Below, in pieces: positions 3,032 through 21,824 of a stretch of 21,824 nt of DNA; within the stretch, counting starts at the first letter, position 1; each line of letters opens with the position of its first letter. Source of the stretch: Basidiobolus meristosporus CBS 931.73 (taxonomy: Eukaryota > Basidiobolomycota > Basidiobolomycetes > Basidiobolales > Basidiobolaceae). A program made the position numbers and the translations under genes. The notes under the pieces are model-generated. The model searched no databases. It was not told the origin of the DNA and saw only the letters and a program-made list of their open reading frames with translations. The stretch spans positions 1 to 21,824 of the forward strand of contig MCFE01000984.1 in the NCBI GenBank assembly GCA_002104905.1. The letters run 5' to 3'.

Positions 3032-3380
3032 TGTTGTAATTATTGAATTGTCACCTAAATATTCATGCTAACTTAGTCACATAGATCTTATTCTGTGATT
3101 AGCATTCTGTCCTGACTAGATTTCTTGTCGGGATTTACTTAGAATATTTTCACCAAATTGTCAGGTACCCAGATTATTATTTTTCTCAAAGTCGTCCAAA
3201 AGACCCCAAACTTTGCACACATATTCTTGGGACCTTCCTTAACAAACTCTACACGTTTGTTTCCTCTACTTTATCAAAAGTATAAATACCATACTTTTGA
3301 TCAATAAATCTACAAGTGAATAACATGTAAATCCTCTAGTTCTCCACATCACTTCCAATACTCCTCAGAATATTGCAACA
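3032..3380 (+). repeat. LTR copy 2 of the copia-type element
   Basis: This is the same 349-bp sequence as 68-416, shifted by 2964 bp. It is the 3' LTR of the first unit and the 5' LTR of the second, so the two units share it. It is preceded by the purine-rich tract and followed by the primer-binding site. I saw no difference from copy 1. Confidence 0.85.
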
Positions 3381-3393
3381 GGTTATGAGCCCC
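3381..3393 (+). other. Primer-binding site of copia-type unit 2
   Basis: Second copy of the initiator tRNA-Met anticodon-arm primer site, directly after LTR copy 2. Confidence 0.8.
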
Positions 3394-5995
3394 GAGCTTG
3401 CTGTCCTCTTGGTGTCTACTATGCTTTGGATCCTTTTCTGCTAGTCTGGAGAAAGACTTTCCGCACTATTGCTCTGCTAAGGTTAAAGAAGACTACCGCT
3501 GCTAAAGGACTATGTTTATGAGGATATTGCTGTGGAGAAGAAGGCCTTGCCTTTAAAAGATGCCTTCAGTAACTATCCAAGTTAGTTATGAAGAAGAGTC
3601 AATCAAACTGGCATGTAATTGTGTCAAGAAATATAGTATGTTGGTGCTCTACCACTACTGAAGAAAATTGCATAATTCCAGCAATTGAGGGTCCAGATCT
3701 ACAATGAAATATACTGCAATATGTATTCATATGACCCCAATTGACTGTTAGACGAGCTTTTGGATAGGATATTATCCTGAATTGCAAAAGAAAAAAATAT
3801 AGATCATTATTAATGATTGCCGGAGGAGGATTTTACCAAAAATCTGTTGCCACTCAAAATACAGCTGAGAATGCAAATACTGGAGCTGTTAGCCGCCATT
3901 CTGGACTATCTACTGATGGAAAAAGATCTCAGAAACAAGCTTCCTGAATTGTAAGGATCCCAATGATATATGATACATATATATCCACCTGGAGTACAGA
4001 TATGTACTACACAATCCATTAGAAGAATGCTATAATTGTATCAAGTGTTTTGATACTGAAACCAGTGTACCAGGAGCTAAATATGGAGCTGTTAGACGTG
4101 CTATCACTCTGTTTAAGTCTCAAAACAGTGGGAGAAAGTATTATACAAATTTAGCAAAATCAACTCATGAAGATTCTACCGCCAGCCAAAGGAGTGAAGC
4201 ATATAATTGCAAGCCTGATTGGAGTATACAACCAAGCAACAGTTGGTCAGTACACAGCTAAGAGCCACTCAGAAGATAACACAGTACTTTATACTTGTTA
4301 TATATATATCACTTATTACAGTGGGAGAAAACACTTGGTGATATTTAACTTCTCTGTATCAGATCAGAAGAATTTTGATTGATCAAGTCACCGCCAAGTT
4401 CTGCAACTCAAAATACTGATATATTGGAGTCTGATACCAAAGTATTGATGAAGCTAGCTATCAAATGCAGTTTATTTGATCAAATTTGGTCAACTCTATC
4501 AAAAGTTATGAATGATCTAAGTGGATGCCGATTTTGATTATTTCACTCTCAAATAGTCAGATATTCTGGAACAATGATGTCATGGAGACTCTTGTGCTCA
4601 AAAACACCGTGGTCCTACCTGCAAGGAAGTCCAGAACCACCCCACAAAAGGAATTATCCCTGGGTCATCAGCAGAAAAAGAAAAGAAGAAAAAATGGAAA
4701 ATACTACTACCGCAAACTAGGGTACATCCCAAATGGTGCCAAAACTTATGTAGGCCATATTTGGACTATCTGGCAATGCAGATATGTTCTATGGAGCCTC
4801 TTGTACGAAGTTCTCAAGCTAGAAACCCCAGAAGAGCCTTGAAACTTCAACAGGATCTGTTAGATATTGTAGTATATATTGGAACAGATTATTTAGTGCA
4901 GAAGTCTTGATGTCTGCTGTCTATGGAGCTGAAAGAAAAAGGTGCAAGGATCAACCAGATGGTTTTTATGGATCCTGAAGACACTGAGAAGATCAGTTAG
5001 CCTTGGAAACCGAGCTCAAGGTTGAAAATAACTATCAGGAGAATAAGGATAATCAAAGCCCTTGTTAAGGAGAATCTCACTTCTGGAAAAGCGCCAATCT
5101 CTATTCTACAAGTATATTCTGATAAGACAAAAGCAGCTGTATCAATCCAAATCAGTAGAAGCACTCTAAGAATAGCTACCAAACAACCCATGGTGTTGTC
5201 CAATACCAAACTGGGTAAATCAAGAAGCAAATGGACTTTGAATCTACCGCATATGAAGTAATCAGTCCAAAGAAAGTTATTGCTATTTAAAGAAGACAAA
5301 GATGACCATTCTAGATCATATTTGTGGATCTGAATCACTAAACAGACGTGGTTCAAGTGGGAGCAGGCCATCCCAGCTCAGAGTTGAGCAAAAACCTTCT
5401 TTTTTTGGCCATGTTATATGTGCCACAGTGCCAGGAAACAAGGATAATCCGGATCAGGCATAAATGACAAAACCTTAACTTGACCCAAAGTAGGTCACTA
5501 TTTTTTACCTCATATAGCATCTATATGATGGAAGTAACTGTCCCTGAGCCTAATATGGACACACAGTGAAGTTGTCTAAATGGATTAGACTGTTGGCCAG
5601 AAATAAGGAAACTCCAGATCTGCCGTAAATGACAAAACCTTAACTTGACCAAAAGTGGGTCAATTTTGCTCAAATAAGAAGCATTGGATAGCCCAGAGGC
5701 TATATACCATTATTACGATCTGTCAATTAGACTCAGCTTATTATTCAAGCCCGTACAACTGATCAAAGTTGATGATTAGTATTATGATCAGATCATTCAG
5801 ATTTTTAGGCATATTACTAAGTAGATATGCATACTGAATTCCAAGTTACTTGTTCTATTAAGTTGAACACAAATGCATACACCTTTGGATAATATATTAG
5901 TCCAGTATGCAAAACAGTTAAATCTTATACGCTTATTACAGATTGCACACTCACAATATGTATTTATTACTCATGAATATTTTGTTGAGTGGGAG
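3381..5995 (+). mobile_element. Internal region of copia-type unit 2
   Basis: Same 2615-bp sequence as the first internal region, with the same short ORFs shifted by 2964 bp. Because the stops and frameshifts are shared, the decay happened before the duplication. The duplication is therefore recent relative to the loss of coding capacity, or it is an assembly artefact. Confidence 0.7.
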
Positions 5996-6344
5996 TGTTG
6001 TAATTATTGAATTGTCACCTAAATATTCATGCTAACTTAGTCACATAGATCTTATTCTGTGATTAGCATTCTGTCCTGACTAGATTTCTTGTCGGGATTT
6101 ACTTAGAATATTTTCACCAAATTGTCAGGTACCCAGATTATTATTTTTCTCAAAGTCGTCCAAAAGACCCCAAACTTTGCACACATATTCTTGGGACCTT
6201 CCTTAACAAACTCTACACGTTTGTTTCCTCTACTTTATCAAAAGTATAAATACCATACTTTTGATCAATAAATCTACAAGTGAATAACATGTAAATCCTC
6301 TAGTTCTCCACATCACTTCCAATACTCCTCAGAATATTGCAACA
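5996..6344 (+). repeat. LTR copy 3 (terminal) of the copia-type element
   Basis: Third copy of the 349-bp LTR. It ends exactly at CAACA (6344), and the following sequence no longer matches the element, so 6344/6345 is the right-hand integration junction. The matching left junction lies outside the window, so a target-site duplication cannot be tested. Confidence 0.85.
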
Positions 6345-6959: not shown

Positions 6960-7240
6960 TATTACCAGTTGAATGCCAAGTATGGGACTTTTTGTATGAG
7001 TCACGGAAAACAGGGCAAGTTAAGCAGAAAAAGGGATATTCTTAGTGGTAGGTTGCATAGACTCATACAATCTTGAGATTGATTCAGTGCTAACATCCAT
7101 GTCCATCAAGGTCAAGGTATCCATGATACGCTCCCAACTTCCAGTGTGCTTAGATACTCCTAAGGAGGAAGAGTATCAGATAGCATTTTCCCAGAGAGTC
7201 TTTATCTTTGGGTTAGGAAAGTGAAGGTATCTATAATTAG
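6960..7240 (-). pseudogene. Relic of LINE ORF2 (region upstream of RT)
   Basis: Read on the minus strand this matches, with stops, the segment just upstream of the RT core in the LINEs further right. YLHFPNPK here corresponds to YLSFPNPK in element A, and SISRLYESMQP corresponds to SITRTVSRLYRAMRP in A and SISRVYTAMRP in element B1. At DNA level, AAGGTATCCATGATACG (from about 7112) closely matches B1 near 13165. The fragment is truncated at both ends and has at least two in-frame stops. It has no telomeric seam and no 3' tail, so it is an internal fragment, not a terminal addition. The left limit is soft. It shows that this LINE lineage was present centromere-proximal of HSP70 long enough ago to decay. 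Confidence 0.7.
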
Positions 7241-8271: not shown

Positions 8272-10212
8272 ATGTCTAAAGCTGTCGGAATTGATTTGGG
8301 AACCACCTACTCCTGCGTTGGTGTCTGGCAAAACGATCGTGTAGAGATTATTGCCAACGACCAGGGTAACAGAACCACTCCCTCCTATGTTGCTTTCACA
8401 GACTCTGAGCGCCTCATCGGTGATGCCGCCAAGAACCAAGTTGCCATGAACCCCACCAACAGTGTGTTCGATGCCAAGCGCCTCATTGGTCGTCGTTTCA
8501 ACGACTCCGAGGTCCAATCTGATATGAAGCACTGGCCTTTCAAGATTGTCGAGAAGGACTCCAAGCCCTTGATCCAAGTTGAGTACAAGGGTGAGAGCAA
8601 GACCTTCACTCCTGAGGAAATCTCCTCGATGATCTTGTTAAAGATGAGAGAGACCGCTGAGGCCTACCTCGGTGGTGAGGTGAAGAGCGCCGTGATCACC
8701 GTTCCTGCCTACTTCAACGACTCTCAGCGCCAAGCTACCAAGGATGCCGGAGCTATTGCTGGTATGAATGTCCTTCGTATCATCAACGAGCCTACCGCCG
8801 CTGCCATTGCCTACGGTCTTGACCAAAAGACCAGTGGTGAGAAGAATGTCCTCATTTTCGATCTCGGAGGAGGTACCTTCGATGTCTCCCTCTTGACCAT
8901 TGAGGATGGTATCTTCGAAGTCAAGGCCACTGCTGGTGATACTCACTTGGGTGGTGAAGATTTCGATAACCGCCTTGTCAGCCACTTCGTCCAAGAGTTC
9001 AAGCGTAAGAACAAGAAGGACTTGTCCAGCAATGCTCGCGCCCTTCGTCGTCTCAGAACTGCATGTGAGCGTGCTAAGAGAACCCTTTCATCTGCTGCTC
9101 AAACCTCCATTGAGATTGACTCTTTGTTCGAGGGGATTGACTTCTACACCTCCTTGACTCGTGCCAGATTCGAGGAACTCTGCCAAGACTTGTTCCGTTC
9201 CACCATGGACCCTGTCGAGAAGGTTCTTCGTGACTCCAAAATTGACAAATCCAATGTCCACGAAATTGTGCTTGTTGGAGGATCCACCCGTATCCCCAAG
9301 ATCCAGAAACTCGTTTCTGATTACTTCAACGGCAAGGAGCCCAACAAATCCATCAACCCTGATGAGGCTGTTGCCTACGGTGCCGCTGTCCAAGCGGCTA
9401 TCTTATCTGGTGATACCTCTGAGAAGACCCAAGACTTGCTTTTGCTCGATGTTGCTCCTCTCTCCTTGGGTATTGAGACAGCGGGAGGAGTGATGACTCC
9501 CTTGATCAAGAGAAACACTACCGTCCCTACTAAGAAGTCCGAGACCTTCTCTACCTATGCCGATAACCAGCCCGGAGTGTTGATTCAGGTCTTTGAAGGT
9601 GAGCGTGCCCGTACCAAGGACAACAATATCCTTGGCAAATTCGAGCTTACCGGTATCCCACCTGCTCCTCGTGGAGTTCCTCAAATCGAGGTTACCTTTG
9701 ATGTTGATGCCAACGGTATCTTAAACGTGTCTGCTTTGGACAAGACTACTGGTCGCTCAAACAAGATCACCATTACCAATGATAAGGGGCGTCTCTCCAA
9801 GGAGGATATCGAGCGCATGGTGTCTGAGGCCGAGAAGTACAAGGCTGAGGATGAAGCCGCTGCCTCTCGTATTTCTGCCAAGAACGGACTTGAGTCCTAT
9901 GCCTATTCTCTCCGCAACACCATTCAAGACGAGAAGGTTGCAGGACAATTGGAGGTTGATGACAAGAAGAAGCTTGAGGAAGCCATCAACAGCACCATCA
10001 GCTGGTTGGATAACAGCCAAGAAGCTTCCAAGGAGGAATACGAAGACAAGCAAAAGGAGTTGGAAGGTGTTGCCAACCCCATCATGACCAAGATGTACCA
10101 AGCTGCTGGCGGTGCTCCAGGTGCTGCTCCAGGAGGGTTCCCTGGAGGTGCCGCCCCTGGTGGATTCCCTGGTGCCGATAGCGGTGAACCAACTGTTGAA
10201 GAGTTGGATTAA
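8272..10212 (+). CDS. HSP70: Cytosolic heat shock protein 70 (Ssa-type)
   Basis: This is a 646-residue ATP-dependent chaperone that binds exposed hydrophobic segments of client proteins, working with J-proteins and nucleotide exchange factors in cytosol and nucleus. The three Hsp70 signatures are present: IDLGTTYS (7-14), [11 protein letters not shown] (195-205) and [10 protein letters not shown] (334-343). The interdomain linker DLLLLD is at 388-393, followed by the substrate-binding domain, the helical lid and a Gly/Pro/Ala-rich tail from about 613. No signal peptide or HDEL is present, which argues against the ER paralogue. Length matches fungal Ssa proteins and the frame is uninterrupted with no intron. 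Codons end mostly in C or G within AT-rich surroundings, as in highly expressed fungal genes. The terminus is EELD, not the usual EEVD that docks TPR co-chaperones. The ATG is preceded by a TATA box and GAA modules. Antisense ORFs across it are shadows. Confidence 0.98.
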
Positions 10213-10319: not shown

Positions 10320-10724
10320 TTTAAGAAAACGTTGAGATATTTTCGATGTATTATCAATGAATAGATCCGAGGAGTTCTATTTTAATACATATTAGTAGGT
10401 ATGGGAAACGAATATTGCAACAAGACTTTCAAACTAGTAATGTGTTATCAAGCAAGAATCAAAGGCTAACCATAATTTTGGGCGGGAAATATTTGGAGGC
10501 TGAGGTGCTCATGGGCTTGCAAAACTGCAAGTTTAACACCGCACCACTGATAGCCCTACTGAATTATTAGTGAAGTTCTACCAACCATGTTGATAATAGA
10601 GCTGAATGCCACTTAATATTAGAATGAAACTGGCCAAAGTAAGTCATGCCATACTAACAATAATCATTTAACATCTATAATGTGACATATCAAGTACTGA
10701 TTGTGATGTGCATTCTTATGCCCA
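10320..10724. other. Unassigned DNA downstream of HSP70
   Basis: No ORF of note. On the minus strand, 10504-10560 has a tRNA-like look: an A-box-like GGCTATCAGTGGT and a hairpin with CTTGC and GCAAG arms. It lacks a convincing B box. It may be a decayed SINE head or chance. Confidence 0.3.
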
Positions 10725-10975
10725 AGTCCTTATTCCAAGTAAAACAAAGAAGTCAGTGTTAGCTCTGTAACCTACCTATAAGAGTGTGAAGCTGGGGGGA
10801 GTTGGTATGTATATTAGAAACAGGTAGGATAAGTCACCAGGGTTGAAATATAGCTTAAGGAGAAAAGTGCAAATACAGGTAGCTAAAATGCTATCAGCAG
10901 CATTAATGAGACAAATACTCTACTGACTAATGCCTATTACCAAGGATGAGTGTGCATAAGATATTGCTGCCAAAG
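10725..10975 (-). mobile_element. Degraded 3' end of an A-type LINE
   Basis: On the plus strand this aligns with the 3' end of element A at about 15158-15410. Shared landmarks in the same order are ACAAAGAAG(T/C)CAG, AAGAGTGTG(A/T)AGCTG, CATTAATGAG and GATATTGCTGCCAAAGG. The terminal stem is no longer recognisable and no telomeric seam remains. It is the most decayed member of the stack and lies closest to HSP70. The rest of its ORF2 is missing or unrecognisable. Confidence 0.6.
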
Positions 10976-11283
10976 GGTGAGGGTCAGGGTTCTGGTACTT
11001 TACTGGGAAACTTGCACATAAAGTGCAATCTTGAGATATGACAAAGTCATATGAATACAGCAACTAACACAACAAGATAATCACTACTACTCTGCTTATA
11101 GCAGAGGTAAAAGAAATGGTAAAAGCTGTAATGGTAAAGTGGTGGACGCAAGAATTTCACAAAAACTTTCAATGCTCCTATACAAGAAGTAGGCTAATAG
11201 TACTTAAGGGAAACTAAAAAGACTGAACTAAAGAGTCCTGTTCTTCATGATAAAGGAAGCAATGAAGGCTGCAGAAGCCCAAG
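10976..11283. other. Unassigned spacer before the element stack
   Basis: No gene, repeat or structure that I can support. It may be eroded sequence of the preceding LINE relic, but I could not align it to element A. Confidence 0.3.
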
Positions 11284-11289
11284 TTAGGG

Positions 11290-13288
11290 AAGGAAAGTCA
11301 CCAAGTTGGTGAAATCTTTATTTGAGTCAAGAAGTAATCTAAGCACAAAAAAAGAAGCCAATTAAGAAGACTAGGACCTCTCTAATATGTAATCTAAATT
11401 TTGTTTTGTTTCATCTCTAATGTTTGTTTCTATAAAGTAAAGCTCATCAGGGGTATATACAAAATGCAGGGGTTTTGGGGGAAGTAGAAATTGGAGATGT
11501 TTCTGATCAATATAATCTAAGAGAGGAACCCAGCCTGGGATTAGGTGTAATAGGAAAGGTGTGTGGACTTGTAAGTAGCTCTGCCACATAGATCTTAGAT
11601 GGTCTTGTGCCAGTAGTCTTGGTTTCTCAGCTTTTTGAAGTTTTGAAGCAAACTCTGTTACTACAGCAGAGCCAACCAGGGTGTGTCAGCAGGAAAATTT
11701 CAGAGAGGAGTAAGATTTAAGCCATTGTTTGATGGAGGGGTTATGTGATCTCTGAAGTTTCACTAGGAAGGAAGCATGGAGATAGACCATTCAGATTTGG
11801 TATGGGTAGAGCCCAAAGGCTCCATTAGTTGCATGGATATAGGGAGATATTGGAAGATAAGTTACTAAGGATCTGATACACTGATGGAGAAATTTATCCA
11901 GGCAGGGAAGTTCTCTGGAGGTTAGAGGTATAATGTGGAGACCAAAGTACCAGCAGTACATACTGCTTTAGAAGTATAGGGATCTTTTGAATTGGAGTTT
12001 CTGGAGTGACTACTACCAGAAGCTTTTACAGAGCCTGTTGGGCAAGATGGATCCTACTATTCAGGTGGAGCTTTGAGTCAATCCCATGTTGACAAAATGG
12101 CAGACCTAGATATATTGCTGTTGGCTGTGGCACAATGCTAGTGTTCTGTATAGTTGTAGTGCACCCAATTGGGACTGCCTTGGAAATTGAGAGTGAGAGG
12201 TTGTTGGCAGCCAAGTACTTCTCAATGATGGCAGTGTCTGTTATGGGATTAGGAGTAGCAATCTTGATATCATCTGCATAGAGAGTTAGTAGTGGATAGG
12301 GAGAGTCTGGTGAGGGGCCTTCTGGAAATAAAGGAAAGCCATGCAGAAATATCACAAATTGTAAGGGACCCAGTACATATCCTTGGACTACTCCATTTGG
12401 AACCTCACAAGTCTCTGATGTGCAACTTGGATGCAAAATTTTGGCAGAGTTCTCACAAAATAGAGAACATACAAGTAGGGTCATTGGTAGTGTGGTAACT
12501 CCTAATAGCTTGCTCCAAAGCAGAGTTCTGTCAACAGAGTCAAAGGCTCAAGTAATGTCAAACAGAATGGTTGGCAATGAGATTGGAAGTGAATGATCAT
12601 GGCTTAGCACTACATCCATATCCAAGGAGAGTTTGGGCAAGAAGCCAAACTGAGAAGAATGGAATGGATATAGTTGAGATTGCAAGGATCCTGCTATAAT
12701 AAGCTCAGGATATTCCGGCAGGTTGGTAGGAGTGAAACTGGCCAGTAAGAGCCTGGGAGTGAGTGTTTCCCTTTCCCTTGGTATAAGGGGATTACATTGG
12801 CCTGTGACCAGGCCTTTGGGGTAGTCAAGTGTTGGGCACAGATAGAGTAGAATGGGAGAAGTAAGTGACTCATTTTGGAGTAGCACACCCTGAGTAGATC
12901 ATAGGTAATCAAGTCATGTCCAGGTGCAGTATTTGCAGGAAGCTTCTTTAAAATTTTCTCCAGAAGCTTGGCTGGAATCAGAATTGGAGATGTTGGACTG
13001 TTGGATATGTTACCAGTATGGTAGAAAGGAGGAGTGGGATGCATGGATGAATCAATGAATATAGGGGCCAGTTTGTCTGGTAATGGTATACTCTTTGCTT
13101 GGGGCCTCATGGCAGTGTATACTCTTGATATGGACCTTGTGGTGGCATTCATATTTACTAAGGGCAAGGTATCCATGATATGAGCCCATAATCTAGTATG
13201 CTCAGTGATCTGTAGTGACTTGGAGTAGGAGATTGCGCTTTCAAGGAGGTTATGTGTTTATAGGTTAGGGAAACATAGGTAGCTGGAT
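11290..13288 (-). mobile_element. LINE element B1, 5'-truncated
   Basis: A non-LTR retrotransposon on the minus strand whose 3' end faces the centromere and abuts TTAGGG (11284-11289). The 3' tail contains the stem TCACCA/TGGTGA (11298-11312), the AAATAAAGATTTC box and the TGGCTTCTTT box shared by every element in the stack. It carries a decayed ORF2 from just upstream of RT to the C-terminus. Its 5' end is cut at about 13288, directly at the seam with the next element, and ORF1 and the endonuclease are absent. It is closely similar to B2 (18936-19645) over their shared 0.7 kb but has many more disabling mutations. Confidence 0.85.
11371..13288 (-). pseudogene. LINE ORF2 (reverse transcriptase) of B1, disrupted
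   Basis: Pieces in several frames rebuild the order of a LINE RT. First come the pre-RT segment (ISRVYTAMRP, about 13100) and the APGHDLITYDLL block (about 12920). Next are IPLYQGKGKHSLPGSYWPVS, where YRPIS is expected, and FDIT/AFDSVDR (motif A), broken by TGA at 12548-12550. Then come PNGVVQGYVLGP (motif B) and YADD (motif C, 12269-12280). The C-terminal domain ends at 11371. There is a frameshift near 12700, a TAA after the AQQAL block at 12026 and further breaks between 11600 and 12000. The catalytic YADD is kept but the gene cannot make a full protein. No RNase H domain is visible. Confidence 0.8.
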
Positions 13289-13294
13289 TTAGGG

Positions 13295-13621
13295 GAGGGA
13301 AAGTCACCAAGGTAGGTGAGATCTTTATTGGATTTCAGACAAGTCTTACTTAAAATAAAGAAGCCAGCTGGGAATAGAAGATTCCCAAAGTAAACACTAA
13401 GATGAACATGAATAAATCTAAGCTAAAGTTAAGGCAGTATCCCAGAGTACACTGGAGTTCAGGTTCATGGGCAAGTGAAGTAGATAAGCTTGAGAGATAT
13501 AATAATCTTTTAAGAAATGGGTAACAGCAGGTGAAGGGGAGTTTTTGATAAGTGAAGTGAATCTTGAGAGCAGAGATTCCACTAATGAGAAGGTCTTGTA
13601 AACTAGAAAATCAGGAAACTC
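13295..13621 (-). mobile_element. ORF1-only element C1, 5'-truncated
   Basis: It starts at TTAGGGG (13289-13295) with the shared tail; the stem is TCACC/GGTGA with a 6-nt loop (13304-13319). About 100 bp inside the tail is the C-terminus of an ORF1-like protein, not ORF2. It matches C2 (20158-20668) closely until 13621, where similarity stops abruptly and a CACTA-like transposon fragment begins. Confidence 0.8.
13418..13621 (-). pseudogene. ORF1 C-terminal fragment of element C1
   Basis: The final 67 codons of an ORF1-like protein end LWDTALTLA and match C2 with a few substitutions (for example LLHLPMNLN against LLHSPMNLN). The LWD block lines up with ELWDSAG near the end of element A's ORF1, which suggests homology. 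The visible open frame continues upstream into unrelated transposon DNA, so residues before about WEFPD are chimeric. ORF1 proteins of LINEs bind RNA and act as nucleic-acid chaperones; that role is inferred from position only. Confidence 0.65.
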
Positions 13622-14099
13622 CCATATGAAAAATAATTTGGTCCTGTGGGTGGATCCAATCCGGATCATCCGTCAAGATCCCGTTCAGAGACCATCATAA
13701 TAACAGCAGCTTGGAATTAGTGACCCTCCTGATGATCTTACAACAAGATCATGATGGTGTTTTGCAAATTTTATAGCCAAATAAAGGGATAAAACTTGAC
13801 AATTTTTGATTGGTGCTGTGACAATATTTGCATGTTATTGTTGCGGTCTTTCAGCACTCTATTACTATTTTGAGTGGATCCAGTTGGCCAGGACTTCCAA
13901 TTGCCTTATATGGCAAGAAACTTGACGGTATTTTGATGGCCTCACAGCAAGACTCTGATGGCTTTTTTTTGGCAGTATGACGGCCTGCTGCTGGTTATGT
14001 ATAATGCTACCATACCAATTTACCAAATGGTATTTCCCTTTTCTACCTCCCCTTGTGCAATTCAAATATTCTACTGTAGAATCACCTTTCTTTATTTGC

Positions 14100-14492
14100 T
14101 TACCCACTACTACCTTGGGTATTCCACATATAGTTCAAATAAAAAAAATCTATGGCCTTCTGCTTACTAAACTCTACAAACATGCACACCTGCCACAATT
14201 GACATACTTCTATCACCTCAACTTTTTGGCTTTTTAGTGTGATACTTGCAAAGTTGCCATATACCTTGTACTGCTGGTAGCATATACATCTTGCAAACAT
14301 ATGCTTGGTTGTTGCCACTTCTGCCATGAATACTTCCTGAATATTGGCAAAGAACTTCTTGGTATTTAGCCAATATATTCCTTCTCCCTGCTGGATTCTA
14401 GTCCCCCTTATAGGTGCGCTCTGGCTTTTGTTTATGTAAATTCCGTATTGAATGGTGTAGAAGTTGGCTTGTGACCACAAGAAGTCCGGCAT
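14100..14492 (-). pseudogene. Possible downstream part of the same transposase
   Basis: A 130-codon minus-strand ORF just downstream of the Tnp2-like fragment. It has no motif I can name. Its position and strand fit the variable C-terminal region of the same transposase after a stop or frameshift, with a block near its middle (YWLNTKKFFANIQEVF) that could be the strand-rich end of such proteins. Another ORF at 13865-14107 has no recognisable features. Confidence 0.35.
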
Positions 14493-14556
14493 ATCTTGGT
14501 GGAGTTTTCCTGATAAAAATTAGTTGCTTGTTGCACCCAACCCAACTTTGCATTAC

Positions 14557-15111
14557 TTAACTGATTACCCACGCATTGGGGCTGCTTAGCTTCTTAATGC
14601 CATAGGCATAGGTGTCTCCATGTGCACATTTGTCCTCAGTATTTTCCAACTCTTTCTGGCTGTCCTCCATGTGCCAACTCATCACATCCATGACGGACTT
14701 GAAGGTAATATTCTTGATGAGATTGGGATATGGTAGTACCTGCAACTTGACTTGTCTTCCTATCTCCCCACACATCTGCTCCATAGGAAACTCCCAAAAG
14801 GTGAAGCAAGGCCCAATATTCTCCACACACCATGTAAGATGGAGTAGAGAATGGATACAGTAGCGGCAGAGATCTACACGTTCAGCTTTATGTTTGTAGT
14901 ATAGCCGCTCAAATCCCGTCACATACTCCTCACACAACAGCTGTAGATGCGTCAAGTTGGCATTGGTGGTCCACTTCTGGATAAATATTCCTACAATGCC
15001 CACATATGACTCCCAATGCTTCCAATGTACTCTTGGTAGGAATGGCTTCAGAACACCACTTGAATAAATACATATCCAGTTCATCCAGTCTTTGCATTTG
15101 TATTGTTGCAT
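14557..15111 (-). pseudogene. Tnp2-type (CACTA/Plavaka) transposase, C-terminal fragment
   Basis: The open frame of 184 codons from the ATG at 15111 shows the conserved post-catalytic region of these transposases. It has an HWKHWESYVGIVG helix, then CEEYVTGFERLYY, then a CRYCIHSLLHL block and IGPCFTFWEFPMEQMCGEIG. The last corresponds to the RxxGPxxxxWxFxMERxCG signature that I associate with fungal Tnp2/KDZ-like families. The catalytic DDE region, which lies N-terminal to this, is missing, so the fragment cannot act alone. The frame continues artificially through the telomeric seam into element A's tail. It ends at TGA 14557-14559 after NAWVIS. Family assignment is by motif memory without a search. 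Confidence 0.6.
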
Positions 15112-15116
15112 ATGCG

Positions 15117-15133
15117 TAGGGTTAGTTAGGGGG
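15117..15133 (+). repeat. Interstitial telomere-like seam of element A
   Basis: TAGGGTTAGTTAGGGGG joins the transposon fragment to element A's 3' tail. It reads as two degenerate TTAGGG units plus the run of G that begins the tail. Confidence 0.75.
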
Positions 15134-15187
15134 AGACAGTCACCAACAGGTGAAATCTTTATTTCAGCTGAAACAAAGAAGCCAGCG

Positions 15188-17955
15188 CTACTGTTGTAGC
15201 TTTGATACAAGAGTGTGTAGCTGAGGGGAACTAGTAGGTAAGCTAATAAGAAGTGATGATAGTTCTTCAGTGCTCAAGACACTGTTCAGTGGGAAGGGGG
15301 GTAGCAAGAGAGGTAAGAATGACTTGTGAACAACATTAATGAGGGGAATGTGATAAGGATTGATATTCATCATAAAGGGAGTGTGCTGCTGCAGATATTG
15401 CTGCCAAAGGTCTGTCAAGTACTTCAGTTAGGCCAGCTTGGGTTTTTCTGACTGCAGAATAAATTCAGCAAACTTCTTGACTTCAGGATCTCCAAGTATA
15501 GTTCTCCAGCAGGAGTCAGGTGTAGTGTGGTGTGTTCTCTTCCAGGCCTTAATCAGTGGGTTGTTGCAGTTGTGAAGTCTGAGGTATAATCTGGTTCTAA
15601 GGTAGAGAAGTCTGATCTTATAGGGCATAAACCCAAAAGCACCAAGAATAGCATGTCTGTAGGGGCATTCAGGTAAATGAGGCACCAAGGAGGTAATGCA
15701 CCATACTGCAAACTTGTCAAGCTTAGTGCAGTCTCTAGAAGTAAGAGAGAGAAGTGGTAAGCCAAATTCCAGGACAGGGAAGACAAACTGCTTGAGTAGA
15801 AGGAGGCAGCTGGGAGCTGAAGTTGTAGGAGGAGTAACAGCCAGTAGCTTGTGGAGTGCCTGTCTTGCCAGGATAATTCTCTTCTTCAGGTGTGCTCCAG
15901 AGTCTAGTCCAGTAGGAAGGAAAGGAAAGCCAAGATATGTAGCAGAAACCTGAGCAGGTAGAGTGGAGTTCTCCAAGTTGATGGGAGAGCCCAAAGGTAC
16001 TGTCTTTGCAATGGAAAGCTGGAGATTATTCTTCTGCAGATACTGGTGGATGGTCTGGGAGTCTTGTTGCACATTGGAGGAGGAAATTCTGATGTCATCA
16101 GCAAAGAGAGTAACCAGGCAGTCAGCTGAGAGTCTTGGGAAATCATTCAGGAAGATGGCAAACAGTATAGGACCAAGCACAGAGCCTTGAACCACTCCAT
16201 TAGGAACTGAGAACACAGCTGATTGCTCACTTGGGTGCAGAATTCTTGCTTGTGGATCCAGAAACAGAGACCTGACAAGGAGGGTGAGAGAGGTACTGGA
16301 GAAGCATTGCAACTTGGACCAAAGCAGATTTCTGTCAACTGAATCAAAGGCCTTAGTAATATCAAACAGAACAGAGGGATACTTGCACTGGAGAGAGTGA
16401 TCTTGGCTAAGTATGACTGCATATTCCAAGGAGAGGCCAGGAACAAAGCCAAACTGTGCAGGATGAAACTGAGGGAGTCAGAGTAGAGCTCCTGAGCAAG
16501 CAGAAGCTCAAACACCTTTCTGCAGGTGGGCAGCAGAGATATTGGCCTGTAGGAGCTAGGATCCAGGTGCTTTCCTTTACCCTTGTACAGTGGCAGAACA
16601 TTTGCAAAGGACCATTCCTCAGGAGTAGAAAGCTGGGCTGAGCATTGCTGAAACAGTGGAAGCAGAAGTGCAGACATGGCCTTGGTACTAGTCTTCAGAA
16701 GCTCATAGGAGATTGTGTCCACACCTGGAGCAGTAGAGTTGGGAAGCCTCTTGAGCACATTATGGATTCTCCTTTGATCAAGTGCAAGTGGGATGGGCAG
16801 AGTCTTGAAGTCAGGATGAAAGCCAGGAGTTGAGTACTGCTTTGTAGAGAAGAAGATGTTAGCCAGTTGTTCTGTTGAAGGTAACTTCTTGGAAGAGGGC
16901 CTCATTGCCCTGTAGAGTCTTGATACTGTTCTTGTTATAGAGTTGGAAGATTGCAGAGGCAAAGAACTCATAATATGATCCCAGAGCTGAGTATGCAGAG
17001 TGTGGTGAATTGCCTTGGAGTGGTGTATTGCTGTCAGGAGGAGTTTCTCTGTTTTTGGGTTAGGGAAACTCAGGTAGCTTTGTTGCAGGGCTGAAACAAT
17101 GGATTCCCATTTTCTTGAGGTAACAGCAGTAGTCTTGCATGGCAGTGAGAGGGAGGCAGACACCAGAATCAGATGCTTCACAAAGAGCCAGGCATAGTTG
17201 AGATCATCTGGCAGAGAAAGTAGCAAACTGGCAAGCTTCAAGTAGTTCCCAAAGTCTTTCTTCTGATTCTTGGTAGCTTTGTGGGTAAGCACAGTAAGTT
17301 TTGGCAGCTTCCTTATCACAACTGGTTGCATAGAAAGGGACCAGGCTGGGTGGTCAGAGGCTCTCAAGGATCCTAGCTCAGCTCCAGAGAATTACTTAAC
17401 TTCATTCACAAAGTAGAGGGCAGCAGCAGAAGGGCAGATCCAGTCAACACATCTTTTCTCAGATTGAGCACCTAGTGCTAGCAGGTGGCTTTCTCTCAGG
17501 AAGTTCAGTAGGAATGTAGACCTTGGCTTCATTCTTGCAGTCAGAGTAGTCTTGTTCTCAGGATGGGGAATGTTGAGATCTCCAAGCAAGATAACAGGTG
17601 TTGATATAGATTGTTGGTATTGCTGAACCTTCTGGCATATAACTTGCACTTCCTGAAGGGCAAGACTTGGAGGCAGATAGCAGAGCACCAGACTGATAGT
17701 TGTCAACTGGAGAGCAGCACAGTAAGGGGAGTAAAGAGGAACACAGAGCTGAGGAGTATTGATGGTAGAAGAGATGAAGCAGATAGAGGAGGTATTCTTT
17801 GTTCTAGGAGTAGAAAAGCAATATAGATTAGTCAAAAGTATAGAGGGTAGCTGAACATCAATCAAACACAGGAGGGAAAATCTTGAAAGAAGTCTCTCTA
17901 GAGTTGTTCTTGATGGCTGTATGCTGTTGCAGTTAAGCAACAGAACTTCAGGTAG
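15188..17955 (-). pseudogene. LINE ORF2 of element A: endonuclease and reverse transcriptase
   Basis: ORF2 would nick DNA and reverse-transcribe the element's RNA. The endonuclease domain (17955 to about 17300) shows LLNCNSIQ, YLPP, GDLNIPH (near 17565), CVDWICPS and SDH (near 17355). The position of the catalytic Glu appears to be Asp (LCLIDVQLPS). RT follows with APGVDTISYELL, LPLYKGKGKHLDPSSYRPIS, FDITKAFDSVDR (motif A), PNGVVQGSVLGP (motif B) and FADD (16094-16105, motif C, Phe for the usual Tyr). A C-terminal domain ends LVSKLQQ at 15188. Breaks are an in-frame TAA at 17392-17394, a one-base frameshift between about 16450 and 16480, and an in-frame TAA at 15428-15430. No RNase H or zinc knuckle is seen. 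The frame continues directly from ORF1's TGA with no ATG at its start. LINE clade is undetermined. Confidence 0.85.
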
Positions 17956-17958
17956 TCA
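17953..17958 (-). promoter_or_regulatory. Possible leaky stop (TGA CTA) between ORF1 and ORF2
   Basis: ORF1 ends TGA CTA, and ORF2 continues in the same frame immediately afterwards, with no ATG near the endonuclease start. UGA followed by CUA is the best-known eukaryotic stop-readthrough context. ORF2 may therefore be made as an ORF1-ORF2 fusion. The alternatives are a stop mutation in a single ORF, or termination-reinitiation. Confidence 0.5.
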
Positions 17959-18930
17959 GGCAGAGTTTGTAGCTTCTTCAGAGGCAGCATTGATAATGTG
18001 ACCTGCAGAGTCCCAGAGCTCTTCAAATGGTGCATCACTTAAGTCAGCAAGGAGGGAAATGGCATGATTCTTGAGGAAGTATGCCACATCATAGGAGGGG
18101 GCTTGTCTCTTGATGGCAGCAAAGAAAGACAGAATGGCAACATGGGCTGGAGGCTTGTTGAACAGTAGAGAGTCAGAGGATTCAGATTCTTCAGGCACTA
18201 TCTTGAAGTCAGTTTTCAGCCAGTTAAGGTTCTTCTCCACAAAGGCAACAAATGGGTCAGCAATGTTTTGGTCTAGGATAACCTCCAGAATCTTCCCTTT
18301 TCTCCAGGCCAGGTTGACAATTCTTGAGAGCTGAATATTGCATGCCTTGAGTGCTTTCCTGATGTTGGAAATGGGAGTCCAGGGAACTTGCTTCAAGTAC
18401 ACCACAGTCCAGGTAGAAGCTGGTGGTAGGTTTGCTGGGGGCTTGTAAGTCCTTCTGTGTTGCAATGGAGCTGCAGTAGTCAGATTGGAGTCCACATTCT
18501 CAGTAGAAGGTTTTCTTGATGTGTCTTGCGGAATAGTACTGGAGCTGGATGTGCTGATAATTCTTGCTAGAACCTTGCCTGCATAAGTCTGAGGTATAGC
18601 TGAGGTGACTGTAGAGGTGGTGGCAGCTGGTGCAGGTGGAGAGGCAGAGACTGAAGCAGGAACTGAGGTCACTTGGGAGAAGGCAGTGGAAGCAGGTTTT
18701 CTAGGAGGAACAGAGTTCACTATCCAGTTGTTCTGTAAAACACTGGAGTAGCTTTTCTGTGGAACAGGATCTTGCTCTTGAACAGGAACAGAAGCAGGAG
18801 GCTGGGGCTGAGCAGTAGTGGTAAGGCAGTGGCACTCCAAGGAAGCTTTTTGCAAGGCATCTCTGGCAGTTTTCAGGGCAGTATTGGCTTCATTCTTGAG
18901 CTTCTTGCATTGGGCATCCAGTCTCTTGTT
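17956..18930 (-). CDS. LINE ORF1 of element A, N-terminally truncated
   Basis: This frame is open for about 325 codons from the element's truncated 5' edge to TGA at 17956-17958. The first ~40 residues are Lys/Ala/Glu-rich and could form a coiled coil. A Pro/Ser/Thr/Ala-rich linker follows, then a more structured region beginning STWTVVYLKQVPWTP and ending EELWDSAGHIINA. The last ~150 residues are homologous to the C-type ORF1 (VNLAWRKGKILEVILDQNIA against VNMRFINHHTLEVVLDKSIA). No CCHC knuckle is seen. By position this is the RNA-binding ORF1 protein of a LINE. Its true start is missing; a TTG at 18853-18855 is no better a start than other codons. Over the surviving part it has no disabling change, unlike ORF2. 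Confidence 0.75.
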   Translation of the reverse strand, partial: NKRLDAQCKKLKNEANTALKTARDALQKASLECHCLTTTAQPQPPASVPVQEQDPVPQKSYSSVLQNNWIVNSVPPRKPASTAFSQVTSVPASVSASPPAPAATTSTVTSAIPQTYAGKVLARIISTSSSSTIPQDTSRKPSTENVDSNLTTAAPLQHRRTYKPPANLPPASTWTVVYLKQVPWTPISNIRKALKACNIQLSRIVNLAWRKGKILEVILDQNIADPFVAFVEKNLNWLKTDFKIVPEESESSDSLLFNKPPAHVAILSFFAAIKRQAPSYDVAYFLKNHAISLLADLSDAPFEELWDSAGHIINAASEEATNSA

Positions 18931-18935
18931 TTAGG

Positions 18936-19645
18936 GGAGGGAAAGTCACCAAGTTGGTGAAATCTTTATTTGAGTTAAGAACTAATCTAGGTACAAATAA
19001 AGAAGCCAATTAAGAGGTCTAGAACCTCTCTAATAAGTAATCTAATTTATGTTTTGTTTCATCTCTAATGTTTGTTTCAATAAAGTAAAGCTCATCAGGG
19101 GTAAATATAAAATTCAGGGGTTTTGGGGGAAGTACAAATTGTAGATGTTTCTGATCAATATAATCCAAGACTGGAACCCAGCCTGGGATTAGGTGTAGTA
19201 GGAAAGGTGTGTGGACTTGTAAGTAGCTCTGCCACATAGATCTTAGATGGTCCTGAGCCAGTAGTCTTGGTTTTTCAGCTTTTTGAAGTTTTGAAGCAAG
19301 CTCTGTTACTACAGCAGAGCCAACCAGGGTGTGCCAGCAAGAAGATTTCAGGGAGGAGTTAGATTGAAGCCATTGTTTGATGGAGGGGTTATGTGATTTC
19401 TGAAGTTTGACTAGGAAGGAAGCACGGAGATAGACCATTCGGATTTGGTATGGGTAGAAGCCAAAGGCTCCATTAGTTGCATGGATATAGGGAGATACTG
19501 GAAGATAAGGTACCAAGGATCTGATACACTGATGGAGAAATTTATCCAGGCGGTGAAGTTCTCTGGAGGTTAGGGGTATAATGTGGAGACCAAATTCAAG
19601 TACCGGCAGTACATACTGCTTCAGAAGTATAGGGATCTTTTGAAT
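18936..19645 (-). mobile_element. LINE element B2, severely 5'-truncated
   Basis: A second B-family copy starting at TTAGGGG (18931-18937), with the stem TCACC-AAGTT-GGTGA (18946-18960) and the same boxes as B1. It keeps only the last ~0.7 kb and is cut at about 19645, directly at TTAGGGTTAGGG of the next element. It is highly similar to B1 but, over this stretch, without stops. Confidence 0.88.
19019..19644 (-). pseudogene. LINE ORF2 C-terminal fragment of B2
   Basis: The final ~208 codons of a LINE ORF2 are in one open frame. It starts in the post-RT segment (IPILLKQYVLPVLEFGL, near 19640), passes through FGFYPYQIRMVYLRA and ends LDYLLERF. Element A has the same order (LLLLKQFVFPVLEFGL, FGFMPYKIRLLYLRT). 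The homologous B1 region is broken. This is a 5' truncation typical of incomplete reverse transcription, so the fragment has no start and no RT active site. Confidence 0.8.
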
Positions 19646-19657
19646 TTAGGGTTAGGG
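19646..19657 (+). repeat. Interstitial telomere seam (2 x TTAGGG)
   Basis: TTAGGGTTAGGG lies between the truncated 5' end of B2 and the 3' tail of D1. It looks like telomerase product laid down between two insertion events. Confidence 0.85.
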
Positions 19658-20150
19658 GGGAGGAAAGTCACCAAGTGGTGAAATCTTTATTTACTTATGA
19701 CAAGTATCTAAAGAAGCCAAGTTAATCTGAAGTTATTCCTAGAAAGCTAAGTCTGAGAGATATCTTCCTGGTAAGCCAGGTCTGAGAGTTGAGAAGCTGA
19801 GTGGTACTATATTTCCTAGTTAGCTAGGTCTGAGAAGTCAGAATCTGAATATATCTGAGCTAAGTTATACTGGTTTGCGGTAGCTGAATTGTGGCCGGAA
19901 TGGCCAGTAGACTGGTGGAACTGAGATGAATTTCTGGGCGATCACTGGCCAAATTTACTAGGCAAATCTGGCCAATTGGCATTTCAAGGATATCAGCCAA
20001 TCAGATCCTTTACTTTGCCCGATGGTTGATCAAGCCATCTCCCAATGAGCACACACCAATTTATTGATCAAATTTTGCTGGATCCAGGATTTGAACCCAC
20101 TACCATGGGTATGGAAGGGTTAGGGATAACCACAAGGCTAAGTGTTCTTG
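19658..20150 (-). mobile_element. Telomere-associated tRNA-headed SINE, copy D1
   Basis: A non-coding ~0.5-kb element on the minus strand with the shared 3' tail (stem TCACCA/TGGTGA, 19668-19681; TGGCTTCTTT box). At the 5' end (right side) is a tRNA-like pol III promoter: A box TAGCCTTGTGGTTA (20127-20140) and B box GGTTCAAATCC (20088-20098). Its 5' limit is the same as in D2, so both are probably full length. The body has three short hairpins with CCTRG/CYAGG arms (19738-19751, first one with a mismatched arm; 19767-19780; 19815-19828). The fourth unit present in D2 and D3 is missing. There is no ORF. The element presumably uses a LINE's RT through the shared tail. Confidence 0.8.
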
Positions 20151-20157
20151 GTTAGGG

Positions 20158-20668
20158 GGAGGGAAAGTCACCAAGGTAGGTGAAATCTTTATTTGATTTC
20201 AGACAAGTCTAACTACAAATAAAGAAGCCAGCTGGGAATAGAAGATTCCCAAAGTAAACACTAAGTTGAATATGAATAAATCTAAGCTAAAGTTAAGGCA
20301 GTATCCCAGAGTACACTGGAGTTCAGGTTCATGGGGGAGTGAAGTAGATAAGCTTGAGAGATATAATAATCTTTGAGGAAGTGGGTAACAGCAGGTGAAG
20401 GGGAGTTTTTGATAAGTGAAGTGAATCTTGAGAGCAGAGATTCCTCTAATGAGAAGGTCTTGTAAACTGGAGAATCAGGAAACTCTTTAAAGGCATGGTC
20501 AGTAGGTTCCCAGTAAAGCTGGTCAGAGACATTTTGAGAGAACTCTTTAGCAATACTTTTGTCAAGTACTACCTCCAGAGTGTGATGGTTGATAAATCTC
20601 ATGTTGACAATCTTGGATAAGTTGTAACCTTGTTGCTTGAGATACATCCTATGCTCAGAAATAGGAAT
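20158..20668 (-). mobile_element. ORF1-only element C2, 5'-truncated
   Basis: It starts at TTAGGG (20152-20157) with the stem TCACC-AAGGTA-GGTGA (20168-20183) and the AAATAAAGATTTC and TGGCTTCTTT boxes. About 60 bp after the second box comes an ORF1 C-terminus, so the tail directly follows ORF1. C1 has the same arrangement, which argues against a one-off rearrangement. It is truncated at about 20668 by AAGGGTTAGGGG. Confidence 0.85.
20282..20668 (-). pseudogene. ORF1 C-terminal fragment of element C2
   Basis: An open frame of about 128 codons, truncated at its N-terminus, ends LWDTALTLA at 20282. It contains YNLSKIVNMRFINHHTLEVV and a FLKDYYISQAYLL block. Both correspond in order to element A's ORF1 (IQLSRIVNLAWRKGKILEVI; FLKNHAISLLADL). 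The first ~9 residues of the visible ORF are antisense of the neighbouring D2 tail and seam and are not part of the protein. After the stop there are a few codons and then the tail; no RT follows. Presumed RNA-binding ORF1 protein. Confidence 0.75.
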
Positions 20669-20681
20669 AAGGGTTAGGGGG

Positions 20682-21200
20682 AGGAAAGTCACCAAGTGGT
20701 GAAATCTTTATTTACTTATGACAAGTATCTAAAGAAGCCAAGTTAATCTGAAGTAATTCCTAGAAAGCTAGGTCTGAGAGATATCTTCCTGGTAAGCCAG
20801 GTCTGAGAGTTGAGAAGCTGAGTGGTACTATATTTCCTAGTTAGCTAGGTCTGAGAGAGGTTTCCTGGAAAGCCAGGCCTGAGAAGTAAGAATCTGAATA
20901 TATCTGAGCTAAGTTATACTGGTTTGCGGTAGCTGAATTGTGGCCGGAATGGCCAGTAGACTGGGGGAACTGAGATGAATTTCTGGGCGATCACTGGCCA
21001 AATTTACTAGGCAAATCTGACCAGTTAGCATTTCAAGGATTTCAGCCAATCAGAGCCTTTACTTTGCCCAATGGTTGATCAAGCCATCTCCCAATGAGCA
21101 CACATCAATTTATTAATCAAATTTTGCTGGATCCAGGATTTGAACCCACAACCATGGGTATGGAAGGGTTAGGGATAACCACAAGGCTAAGTGTTCTTGG
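20682..21200 (-). mobile_element. Telomere-associated tRNA-headed SINE, copy D2
   Basis: The best complete copy of the SINE. The tail stem is TCACCA/TGGTGA (20689-20702), preceded on the plus strand by GGGTTAGGGG (20671-20680). It has four hairpins of 14 nt, 5-bp arms and 4-nt loops: 20759-20772 (CCTAG/CTAGG), 20788-20801 (CCTGG/CCAGG), 20836-20849 (CCTAG/CTAGG) and 20864-20877 (CCTGG/CCAGG). Each is followed by YCTGAGA. The pol III B box is at 21136-21146 and the A box at 21176-21189. GGGTTAGGG (21166-21174) lies inside the tRNA-like head. The 5' end coincides with that of D1. Confidence 0.85.
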
Positions 21201-21202
21201 TT

Positions 21203-21230
21203 GGGTTAGGGGGATGATAAGGGTTAGGGG
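21203..21230 (+). repeat. Interstitial telomere seam between D2 and C3, interrupted
   Basis: GGGTTAGGGGG, then ATGATAA, then GGGTTAGGGG. The 7-bp interruption between two telomere-like blocks suggests two end-processing events or a nearly empty insertion. Confidence 0.7.
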
Positions 21231-21302
21231 GGAGGGAAAGTCACCAAGGTAGGTGAAATCTTTATTTGATTTCAGACAAGTCTAACTACAAATAAAGAAG
21301 CC
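21229..21302 (-). mobile_element. Tail-only insertion of a C-type element (C3)
   Basis: Only ~74 bp of the C-type 3' tail is present: G-rich start, stem TCACC-AAGGTA-GGTGA (21241-21256), the AAATAAAGATTTC box and the second box as far as AAAGAAGCC. TTAGGG then follows immediately. It matches C2 base for base over its length as far as I compared. It is an extreme 5' truncation and defines the shortest tail able to be added. Confidence 0.85.
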
Positions 21303-21314
21303 TTAGGGTTAGGG
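21303..21314 (+). repeat. Interstitial telomere seam (2 x TTAGGG) before D3
   Basis: TTAGGGTTAGGG separates C3 from the tail of D3. Confidence 0.85.
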
Positions 21315-21615
21315 GGGAGGAAAGTCACCAAGTGGTGAAATCTTTATTTACTTATGACAAGTATCTAAAGAAGCCAAGTTAATCTGAAGCTATTCCTAGA
21401 AAGCTAGGTCTGAGAGATATCTTCCTGGTAAGCCAGGTCTGAGAGTTGAGAAGCTGAGTTGTACTATATTTCCTAGTTAGCTAGGTCTGAGAGTGGTTTC
21501 CTGGAAAGCCAGGCCTGAGAAGTGAGAATCTGAATATATCTGAGCTAAGTTATACTGGTTTGCGGTAGCTGAATTGTGGCCGGAATGGCCAGTAGACTGG
21601 GGGAACTGAGAGGAA
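21315..21615 (-). mobile_element. SINE copy D3, 5'-truncated and capped by the telomere
   Basis: The most distal element. It has the tail stem at 21325-21338 and all four hairpins (21395-21408, 21424-21437, 21472-21485, 21500-21513). It breaks off after GAACTGAGAGGAA, well before the tRNA-like head, and telomeric repeats begin at once. It is a direct example of a truncated terminal insertion healed by telomerase. Confidence 0.85.
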
Positions 21616-21824
21616 TAGGGTTAGGGTTAGGGTTAGGGTTAGGGTTAGGGTTAGGGTTAGGGTTAGGGTTAGGGTTAGGGTTAGGGTTAGGGTTAGGGTT
21701 AGGGTTAGGGTTAGGGTTAGGGTTAGGGTTAGGGTTAGGGTTAGGGTTAGGGTTAGGGTTAGGGTTAGGGTTAGGGTTAGGGTTAGGGTTAGGGTTAGGG
21801 TTAGGGTTAGGGTTAGGGTTAGGG
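21616..21824 (+). repeat. Telomere, (TTAGGG)n
   Basis: A 209-bp array of TTAGGG (about 35 units) with no variants that I could see, running to the end of the window with the G-rich strand 5' to 3' outward. This is the canonical repeat of most filamentous fungi. The window therefore ends at or near a true chromosome terminus. Confidence 0.97.

Follow-up and report, generated by a model that had tools for sequence, protein, structure and literature searches.

Analysis of contig MCFE01000984.1 of the fungus Basidiobolus meristosporus CBS 931.73 (21,824 nt, hereafter the window, which is contig C1295 in its entirety) has revealed at its right end a stack of retroelements without long terminal repeats (LTRs), each with its 3' end inward on a short stretch of TTAGGG, beneath a terminal telomere array. 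We consider it probable that this telomere is built by two reverse transcriptases (RTs) in alternation, that of the elements and telomerase. The pattern is more general than the window alone, as it recurs at many contig ends of the assembly searched (89.0 Mb, 1311 contigs) and is made by a community of related families: the long interspersed nuclear elements (LINEs) A and B, the elements C and E that encode the first open reading frame (ORF1) alone, the short interspersed nuclear element (SINE) D, and a sixth family, F. Placement near contig ends, orientation, a shared 3' tail, short inner telomeric tracts, 5' truncation, seeded arrays and an age order of the layers are all observed. Throughout, an end is a contig end, Cnnn labels denote contigs of this assembly and L0xx labels stretches read elsewhere in the genome.

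Orientation and position of the elements

The first-pass annotation of the window had described nine minus-strand elements whose 3' tails abut TTAGGG (B1, C1, A, B2, D1, C2, D2, C3 and D3; Table 1), and all nine were found. Their tail cores, all minus-strand 3' ends, begin at 11297, 13303, 15139, 18945, 19667, 20167, 20688, 21240 and 21324, and TTAGGG lies immediately centromere-proximal of each (11284, 13289, 15126, 18931, 19646/19652, 20152, 20674, 21224 and 21303/21309); the same tail expression matched nothing on the opposite strand of the window. Since the 18 copies of TTAGGG outside the terminal array, in 21.6 kb, would give each tail roughly a 1% chance of lying within about 12 nt of one, nine out of nine cannot be ascribed to chance. 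Twelve of these 18 copies are at seams and six elsewhere (7237, 13265, 17060, 19570, 20120 and 21169), and exact double units number 35 in the window, 33 in the terminal array and two at seams.

Across the whole assembly, the tail pattern was matched at 1510 places (1388 forward, 122 reverse) vs. none when it was read backwards as a control, and on the inner side of 1205 of these tails (1118 + 87) TTAGGG lies no more than 12 nt away. Telomeric words displayed a contig orientation bias like that of the tails (7428 forward, 81 reverse). Among 1176 candidate copies of the A RT, 116 were scored, 89 of them on contigs of at least 50 kb and 27 on smaller contigs outside the orientation count. On the larger contigs 80 copies are on the minus strand, at a median of 2.8 kb from the right end with 78 of the 80 within 15 kb, and nine are on the plus strand, seven lying no more than 6 kb from the left end. 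Altogether 87 of the 89 have the 3' end inward, so that, two exceptions apart, these elements are not found equally often at internal sites or in both orientations. The other family markers gave forward/reverse counts of 192/9 for the SINE head, 37/3 for the E tail, 11/1 for the F tail and 66/0 for A ORF1; on contigs of at least 50 kb, 74 of 76 SINE heads (counted over the first 100 of 201 SINE places), 29 of 29 E tails, 8 of 8 F tails and 51 of 53 A ORF1 copies lie within 12 kb of the end that they face. For these positions the sizes of unfetched contigs were interpolated from rank (leave-one-out error median 212 nt, maximum 4026 nt, for ranks of at least 32), and far places on the largest contigs (C979, C646, C424 and C757) are uncertain. 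The orientation, terminal location and TTAGGG seams first described for the window are thus borne out by the genome-wide counts and by the loci read, as are 5' truncation with telomeric re-capping and the mixture of LINE, ORF1-only and SINE classes.

Seam tracts and terminal arrays

Counting the G-run, the telomere-like tract of 92 distinct seams is 11 nt long in the median and at most 38 nt, and it ends in TTAGGG in 75 and in TAGGG in 80. Tails on at least four perfect units number 23 genome-wide, about 1.5% of the 1510 tails, the latter having come from a stricter pattern than the one used for the 23. The terminal arrays, by comparison, have a median length of 207 bp (129-296, n = 38). These numbers exclude random insertion within arrays of about 207 bp, and the short tracts, with few long ones, suggest that the elements join ends carrying almost no telomere. 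Shrinkage of interstitial arrays with age was considered and rejected, as tracts under the 14 outermost elements (median 12.5) are as short as those in the 82 other seams (median 11). The G-run before the tail varies from 1 to 9 by the parser, which would fit slipping of a C-run on the G-run.

To the terminal arrays themselves we have access through 40 telomere junctions, hand-chosen from the 100 listed of 111 places in one array register, with 142 nt read at each; places already fetched and several A-bearing contigs (among them C353, C360, C381, C395, C473, C476, C491 and C593) were skipped. Arrays in the sampled places start 129-296 nt from the contig end, and their lengths were counted from the listed start in 38 of the 40, C210 and C512 being excluded as the listed place falls inside the array. 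Directly under the array, BLAST identified a family element in 27 of the 40, every one of them in the expected orientation, and two further junctions (L065 and L074) were assigned to a family by eye; the resulting total of 29 of 40 does not come from a random sample and probably underestimates the share, because contigs known to carry A had been left out. At one junction (L067) a predicted tRNA-Lys gene adjoins the array start with its 5' edge, and at another (L058) it sits on a stretch judged copia-like by eye. Rough arithmetic from about 7500 telomeric 24-mers at about 31 per array suggests some 240 arrays, and with them many small chromosomes.

Truncation and seeding at 5' junctions

The 5' ends of A are spread from 49 to 4640 nt, with 46 junctions at 46 different coordinates after removal of identical junctions, and D is full length in 19 of 30 junctions. 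Bases at the 5' junction match the repeat more often than expected, with a mean of 1.81 vs. 0.76 at random breakpoints and none of 5000 resamples as high, in the 43 of 109 junctions outside the selected sample that could be scored. Array starts often carry seeds of 1-5 matching bases: among the 22 of 55 terminal junctions resolved well enough for scoring (19 of the 22 from a register that excludes G before TTAGGG), 14 were seeded and, of the eight unseeded, six have a C before TTAGGG, in three cases extra to the element. Truncations of the MoTeR elements have been described in similar terms, with in-frame seeds in 17 of 23 and a C at the terminal position in 5 of 6 exceptions (PMC7367193).

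Age order and uniqueness of the layers

Identity of the window layers to other copies rises outward, from 72-75% in the innermost two to 93% in B1 and 95% in C1 and then to 97-99%; alongside this rise, D1 and D2 are 92% identical with a length difference. Deeper copies in the fetched stacks tend to be more divergent (Spearman 0.43, p 5e-5, 84 of 90 copies), the inner copies being the more divergent in 14 stacks, the outer in four and neither in one (sign test p 0.03). The 96 raw seams reduce to 92 distinct ones, and a second reading of the same contig accounts for three of the four repeats. The sole seam shared between contigs joins a full-length SINE and A (C29, C83 and L037, over 45 nt), which argues that most layers are separate events.

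Element families and their common tail

Family A is a non-LTR LINE, as exemplified by its RT domain, its APE-type endonuclease fold and its frequent 5' truncation. Its ORF1 of about 502 aa has a weak coiled-coil signal and, by eye, a Cys-rich N-terminal motif; its ORF2 frame, 922 aa stop to stop, holds the endonuclease and the RT. The 116 scored A RT copies, 98-100% identical to the RT stretch of the window, include 39 with an ORF2 frame of at least 922 aa. Family B is a second LINE with about 67% DNA identity to A where alignable. Families C (L020) and E (L015), with one long copy read of each, encode ORF1 alone, with identities of 42% between C and E and 35% between C and A over 163 aa. Family D is a SINE, about 525 nt long, whose head looks tRNA-like by eye and contains GGTTCAAATCC, which, again by eye, we take to be B-box-like; ARAGORN and Rfam returned nothing on the whole window. 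Family F ends in a hairpin unlike that of the others, and its tail is matched exactly at 12 places in the genome; few of its copies were read.

The 3' end of families A to E comprises a stem of up to 10 pairs (stem I), a 5-pair stem (stem II) and a C-rich single strand, and that of SINE D is common with the LINE tail of A/B. Among 32 distinct tails, stem II is always paired (100%), as are 98.8% of cells in the outer five pairs of stem I. At pair 10 of stem I, 8 tails have C-G, 15 G-C, 7 A-U and 1 U-G, so that pairing there survives changes on both sides between families. Pair 6 (paired in 29/32) and pair 10 (31/32) are the only ones at which families differ yet pairing persists; for pairs 7 and 8 the figure is 26 of 32 tails. 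These counts were made by position from the ends, as the MAFFT tail alignment is not fitted to stem I. No covariation comes from stem II, which is invariant, or from outer stem I, which is nearly so.

Several side observations concern the elements themselves. The 5' untranslated region of A has two TTAGGG units in 8 of 8 loci (L049-L056), followed by 0-3 tandem monomers of about 100 nt, which recall the promoter monomers of mouse L1. A solo LTR lies within a C element (L024, 5431-5779) with TTGTA on both sides and 76% identity to the LTR in the left part of the window. Runs of the GGGGTGGGTGGGTGGG type occur on the G-rich strand in the 5' parts of three families, C, E and F (L020, L015), and G-quadruplex motifs are known from other telomeric retrotransposons (PMC10088271).

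The ORF2 protein and telomerase

An RT domain was recognized in the open ORF2 of L029 (PF00078, E 2.6e-25) and in element A of the window (RVT_1, E 4e-21), and B1 has an RVT_1 match in 12026-12547 that falls below the cut-off (E 4e-6, 27.0 bits vs. 29.6). The Pfam scan of ORF2 returned RVT_1 and two Exo_endo_phos families only, the endonuclease matches being below cut-off; it found no C-terminal restriction-like endonuclease, and an N-terminal APE-type domain is present instead. Two annotated proteins of B. meristosporus CBS 931.73 match the RT query with 97 and 99% identity, over 46 and 60% of its length. Environmental contigs supplied five ORF2 relatives (48-80% identity), and ORF1 has a relative in Basidiobolus ranarum (55% over 71%). 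The model of one relative, P0013 (mean predicted local distance difference test 84), has LINE-1 ORF2p as its top structural match and an endonuclease resembling APE1/ExoIII.

In the endonuclease, the position of a Glu that we take to be a metal-binding residue is Asp in both relatives covering it and in 7 of 7 readable A copies (window, L010, L029, L049, L050, L052 and L055), vs. Glu in all 33 other LINEs that have a residue at this position. The Asn, Tyr, GDxN, Asp and His sites are unchanged. The idea of an endonuclease-dead element was rejected, as most active-site residues are kept, and we claim the Glu to Asp change alone.

For telomerase, C880 carries two adjacent pieces of the RNA-binding domain; in the unspliced reading used, the frame of one of them contains a stop. 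With telomerase-domain matches in the genome, the description of these ends as a hybrid of retrotransposon and telomerase is a fitting one.

Proposed mechanism and its alternatives

We propose that an end would first lose all but a few TTAGGG bases. The 3' end of an element RNA, with two hairpins and a C-rich strand, would pair with the G-rich 3' end through its C-run, and the LINE A or B protein would extend the chromosome end by copying the RNA from its 3' end, stopping anywhere or at the RNA 5' end. An array of about 200 bp, often seeded by the 1-5 matching bases seen at junctions, would then be added, presumably by telomerase, until later erosion or breakage trims the end and the cycle repeats. 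With such repetition the stack would grow outward with the youngest copy outermost, as in the observed age gradient. We surmise that C, E and SINE D, which share the tail, are probably carried in trans by the A/B machinery. The annotation had likewise named the exposed TTAGGG 3' end as the primer, a proposal that the short tracts favour.

Several points weigh against this account. The retained APE-type endonuclease, with most active-site residues conserved, would seem superfluous for a pure end-primer. Non-family DNA lies under 11 of the 40 sampled arrays, which suggests that arrays are also seeded on other, presumably broken, DNA. Many contig ends have no array, and 13 of 20 contigs picked by their tails ended in one in the stretches read. 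Two contigs carry A in contrary orientation, away from the expected end (C558:96631 on a 218-kb contig and C726:57941 on a 70-kb contig); both have ordinary TTAGGG seams, and a fused or misjoined end would suit them. By the parser 12 of the 92 tracts are without a TAGGG ending, at least five of them holding TTAGGG a few bases to the left, and outside those 92, seams with at least five perfect units occur at C95 (at least 42 nt), C337, C595 and C683. On C476 (107364-111264) three A copies follow each other at an exact 1430-bp spacing, probably a local tandem amplification as described for MoTeR. Finally, the microhomology would also be expected if the 5' end of an element were joined to an existing array.

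It is quite possible, if a little short of probable, that the 5' truncations reflect later terminal erosion and telomere healing, not early RT stops, which would be compatible with alternation of the two enzymes. The arrays resting on non-family DNA, the non-family stretch 13622-15116 of the window that is cut off at a seam, and the seed-or-C junctions resembling MoTeR truncations are all consistent with erosion. Yet erosion leaves the landing of tails on seams unexplained. The mostly full-length SINE and the scattered A ends are what length-dependent stopping predicts, although erosion could produce them too.

The main rival, which we consider unlikely, is nicking inside the TTAGGG array in the manner of TRAS/SART, with target-primed insertion and the old array left outside. 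The retained APE-type fold, the presence of TTAGGG on both sides, the fixed orientation and the few seams with five or more units would agree with it. However, uniform insertion into arrays of about 207 bp should leave tracts of about 100 bp on average, and all 92 tracts read are at most 38 nt, those under outermost elements being equally short and the tails on four or more units as rare as stated above; the cuts would have to be confined to the innermost few repeats. TRAS/SART, moreover, have been described as full length at telomeres (PMC4700185), whereas the A copies here are mostly truncated.

That the stacks have spread between ends, or multiplied locally, by recombination or break-induced replication with little new retrotransposition appears to us highly improbable. 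Such events are documented for MoTeR arrays (PMC7367193), and near-identical A copies across ends as well as the C476 triple point in this direction. On the other side stand the 92 distinct seams among 96, the single inter-contig seam shared, and the 46 different A 5' ends; spread mainly by recombination was dropped on seam uniqueness, against which the C476 spacing stands. An assembly artefact, which the strong contig orientation bias of telomeric words might bring to mind, is scarcely credible, given the same grammar on many contigs with different seams and arrays that start no more than 296 nt from the contig end in the 40 sampled places.

Beyond the alternation of two RTs, we put forward as a tentative proposal, which we hold to be less probable than not, that the ends are kept by telomerase alternating with a dedicated community (two LINEs, two gag-only elements, a SINE and the sixth family) that acts only on nearly telomere-less ends, the elements being end-repair agents that have abandoned ordinary nicking, as the clade-specific Glu to Asp change would reflect, and the SINE being telomere-restricted.

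Comparison with known systems and significance

Telomere-associated retrotransposons have been described in insects, Giardia, Chlorella, an anole, rotifers and Pyricularia (PMC10088271), and hybrid telomeres of retroelement and telomerase are already known from silkworm TRAS/SART, Magnaporthe MoTeR and Fusarium FoTeR. Closest in layout are MoTeR1/MoTeR2 of Magnaporthe (Pyricularia) oryzae, which form head-to-tail arrays on TTAGGG telomeres with 5' ends outward and TTAGGG between copies, and which have a non-autonomous partner with a common 3' end and seeded 5' truncations (PMC7367193). In contrast to the APE-type enzyme here, their endonuclease is restriction-like; their tracts reach more than 20 repeats, vs. 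at most 38 nt in our 92 seams and rarely longer genome-wide; and the part of the MoTeR description covered has no SINE or ORF1-only family, both of which are present here (PMC7367193). FoTeR of Fusarium oxysporum, likewise a non-LTR element of fungal telomeres, has telomeric motifs at its two ends and tandem repeats upstream, but differs in its restriction-like endonuclease, its 3.0-7.0 telomere units at 3' ends and its being one family (PMC12857005).

TRAS and SART of Bombyx mori are also two-ORF telomeric LINEs with endonuclease and RT on telomerase-type repeats, and annealing of their 3' untranslated region to the target has been proposed; unlike the present elements, they insert into the repeats by a specific cut, are reported there as full-length copies only and have opposite orientations of TRAS vs. 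SART (PMC4700185, PMC10088271). Here we find one orientation, mostly truncated LINEs and short inner tracts. With HeT-A/TART/TAHRE of Drosophila the present system would share addition at the 3' OH of the chromosome end, as is assumed there (PMC4700185). As with HeT-A, gag-only partners (here C and E) stand beside RT-bearing elements, with 3' ends inward. Unlike Drosophila, which is without telomerase and TTAGGG (PMC4700185), B. meristosporus has TTAGGG arrays, telomerase-domain matches and a SINE.

Among open-access literature titles none concerned Basidiobolus telomeric retroelements or a telomeric SINE, and the part of PMC10386755 available, which names Basidiobolus often, has no word starting with "telomer". 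The kind of system is thus known; a pair of APE-type LINEs that shares short-seamed TTAGGG ends with two ORF1-only families and a SINE was not found described in the open-access literature, covered mostly by titles.

These data add a fungal telomeric retroelement system from an early-diverging lineage, with an endonuclease unlike that of MoTeR/FoTeR. Rescue of short telomeres by retroelements becomes testable in a cell that still has telomerase, and since each end logs its own losses and repairs in order, this genome can be used for that purpose. The telomere-bound SINE and gag-only elements beside autonomous LINEs also make HeT-A-style dependence testable outside flies.

Layers of the window and its inner DNA

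The layers of the window are listed in Table 1. The annotation had begun the stack at 11284, which is right for the nine named elements, but two older layers, of F and of an A-like remnant, lie further in. Its label C1 stands as family C over 13289-13621 and not beyond, the adjoining stretch matching no family. By eye that stretch is possibly a DNA-transposon fragment; Pfam found nothing at E<=1 for two ORFs within it. In the seam between D2 and C3, the start of the tail in the sliver GGGGGATGAT is identical to that of the long E copy in L015.

Table 1. Retroelement layers and terminal array at the right end of the window, from the inside outward
Feature	Position	Strand	Remarks
A-like tail-region remnant	10724..10811	-	72% over 88 nt to element A; innermost layer, old
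Family F copy, 5'-truncated, old	10995..11278	-	74.7% over 288 nt to F in L015; own hairpin type at 3' end
B1, 5'-truncated family-B LINE with RT remnant	11284..13288	-	93% to B copy in L023; seam TTAGGG 11284-11289
C1, 3' part of ORF1-only element	13289..13621	-	95% to C copies; seam TTAGGG 13289-13294
Non-family DNA between C1 and A	13622..15116	.	no family-library match; ends at next seam
A, LINE with partial ORF1, endonuclease and RT; ORF2 interrupted	15117..18930	-	98.6% over 3661 nt to L029; seam 15117-15131
B2, 5'-truncated B	18931..19645	-	98% to B of L023; seam 18931-18936
D1, tRNA-like SINE reaching full-length 5' end	19646..20151	-	92% to D2 with length difference; two-unit seam
C2, 5'-truncated ORF1-only element	20152..20673	-	98% to C copy in L020; seam TTAGGG
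D2, full-length SINE	20674..21205	-	seam TTAGGG
E sliver, about 10 nt of family-E 3' tail, GGGGGATGAT (21209-21218)	21206..21223	-	own TTAGGG at 21206
C3, about 75 nt of C	21224..21302	-	97-99% to C; seam TTAGGG
D3, 5'-truncated SINE beneath terminal array	21303..21615	-	98% to D2; two-unit seam
Terminal telomere array (TTAGGG)n	21616-21824	+	perfect, 209 bp, right end of window

At the left of the window, 1-6344 comprises a tandem pair of identical 2964-bp units with three copies of a 349-bp LTR-like repeat (68-416, 3032-3380 and 5996-6344; TGTTG...CAACA) and a longest frame of about 126 aa, an arrangement resembling a non-autonomous LTR element whose middle LTR is shared. To the right of it, 7111-7232 has 64% identity to the B/A coding part at 13163-13284, and is either a still older layer or a remnant severed from the stack. 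It lies upstream of an intact Hsp70 gene (8272-10212, PF00012, E 4e-263), which is only about 11.4 kb from the telomere array.

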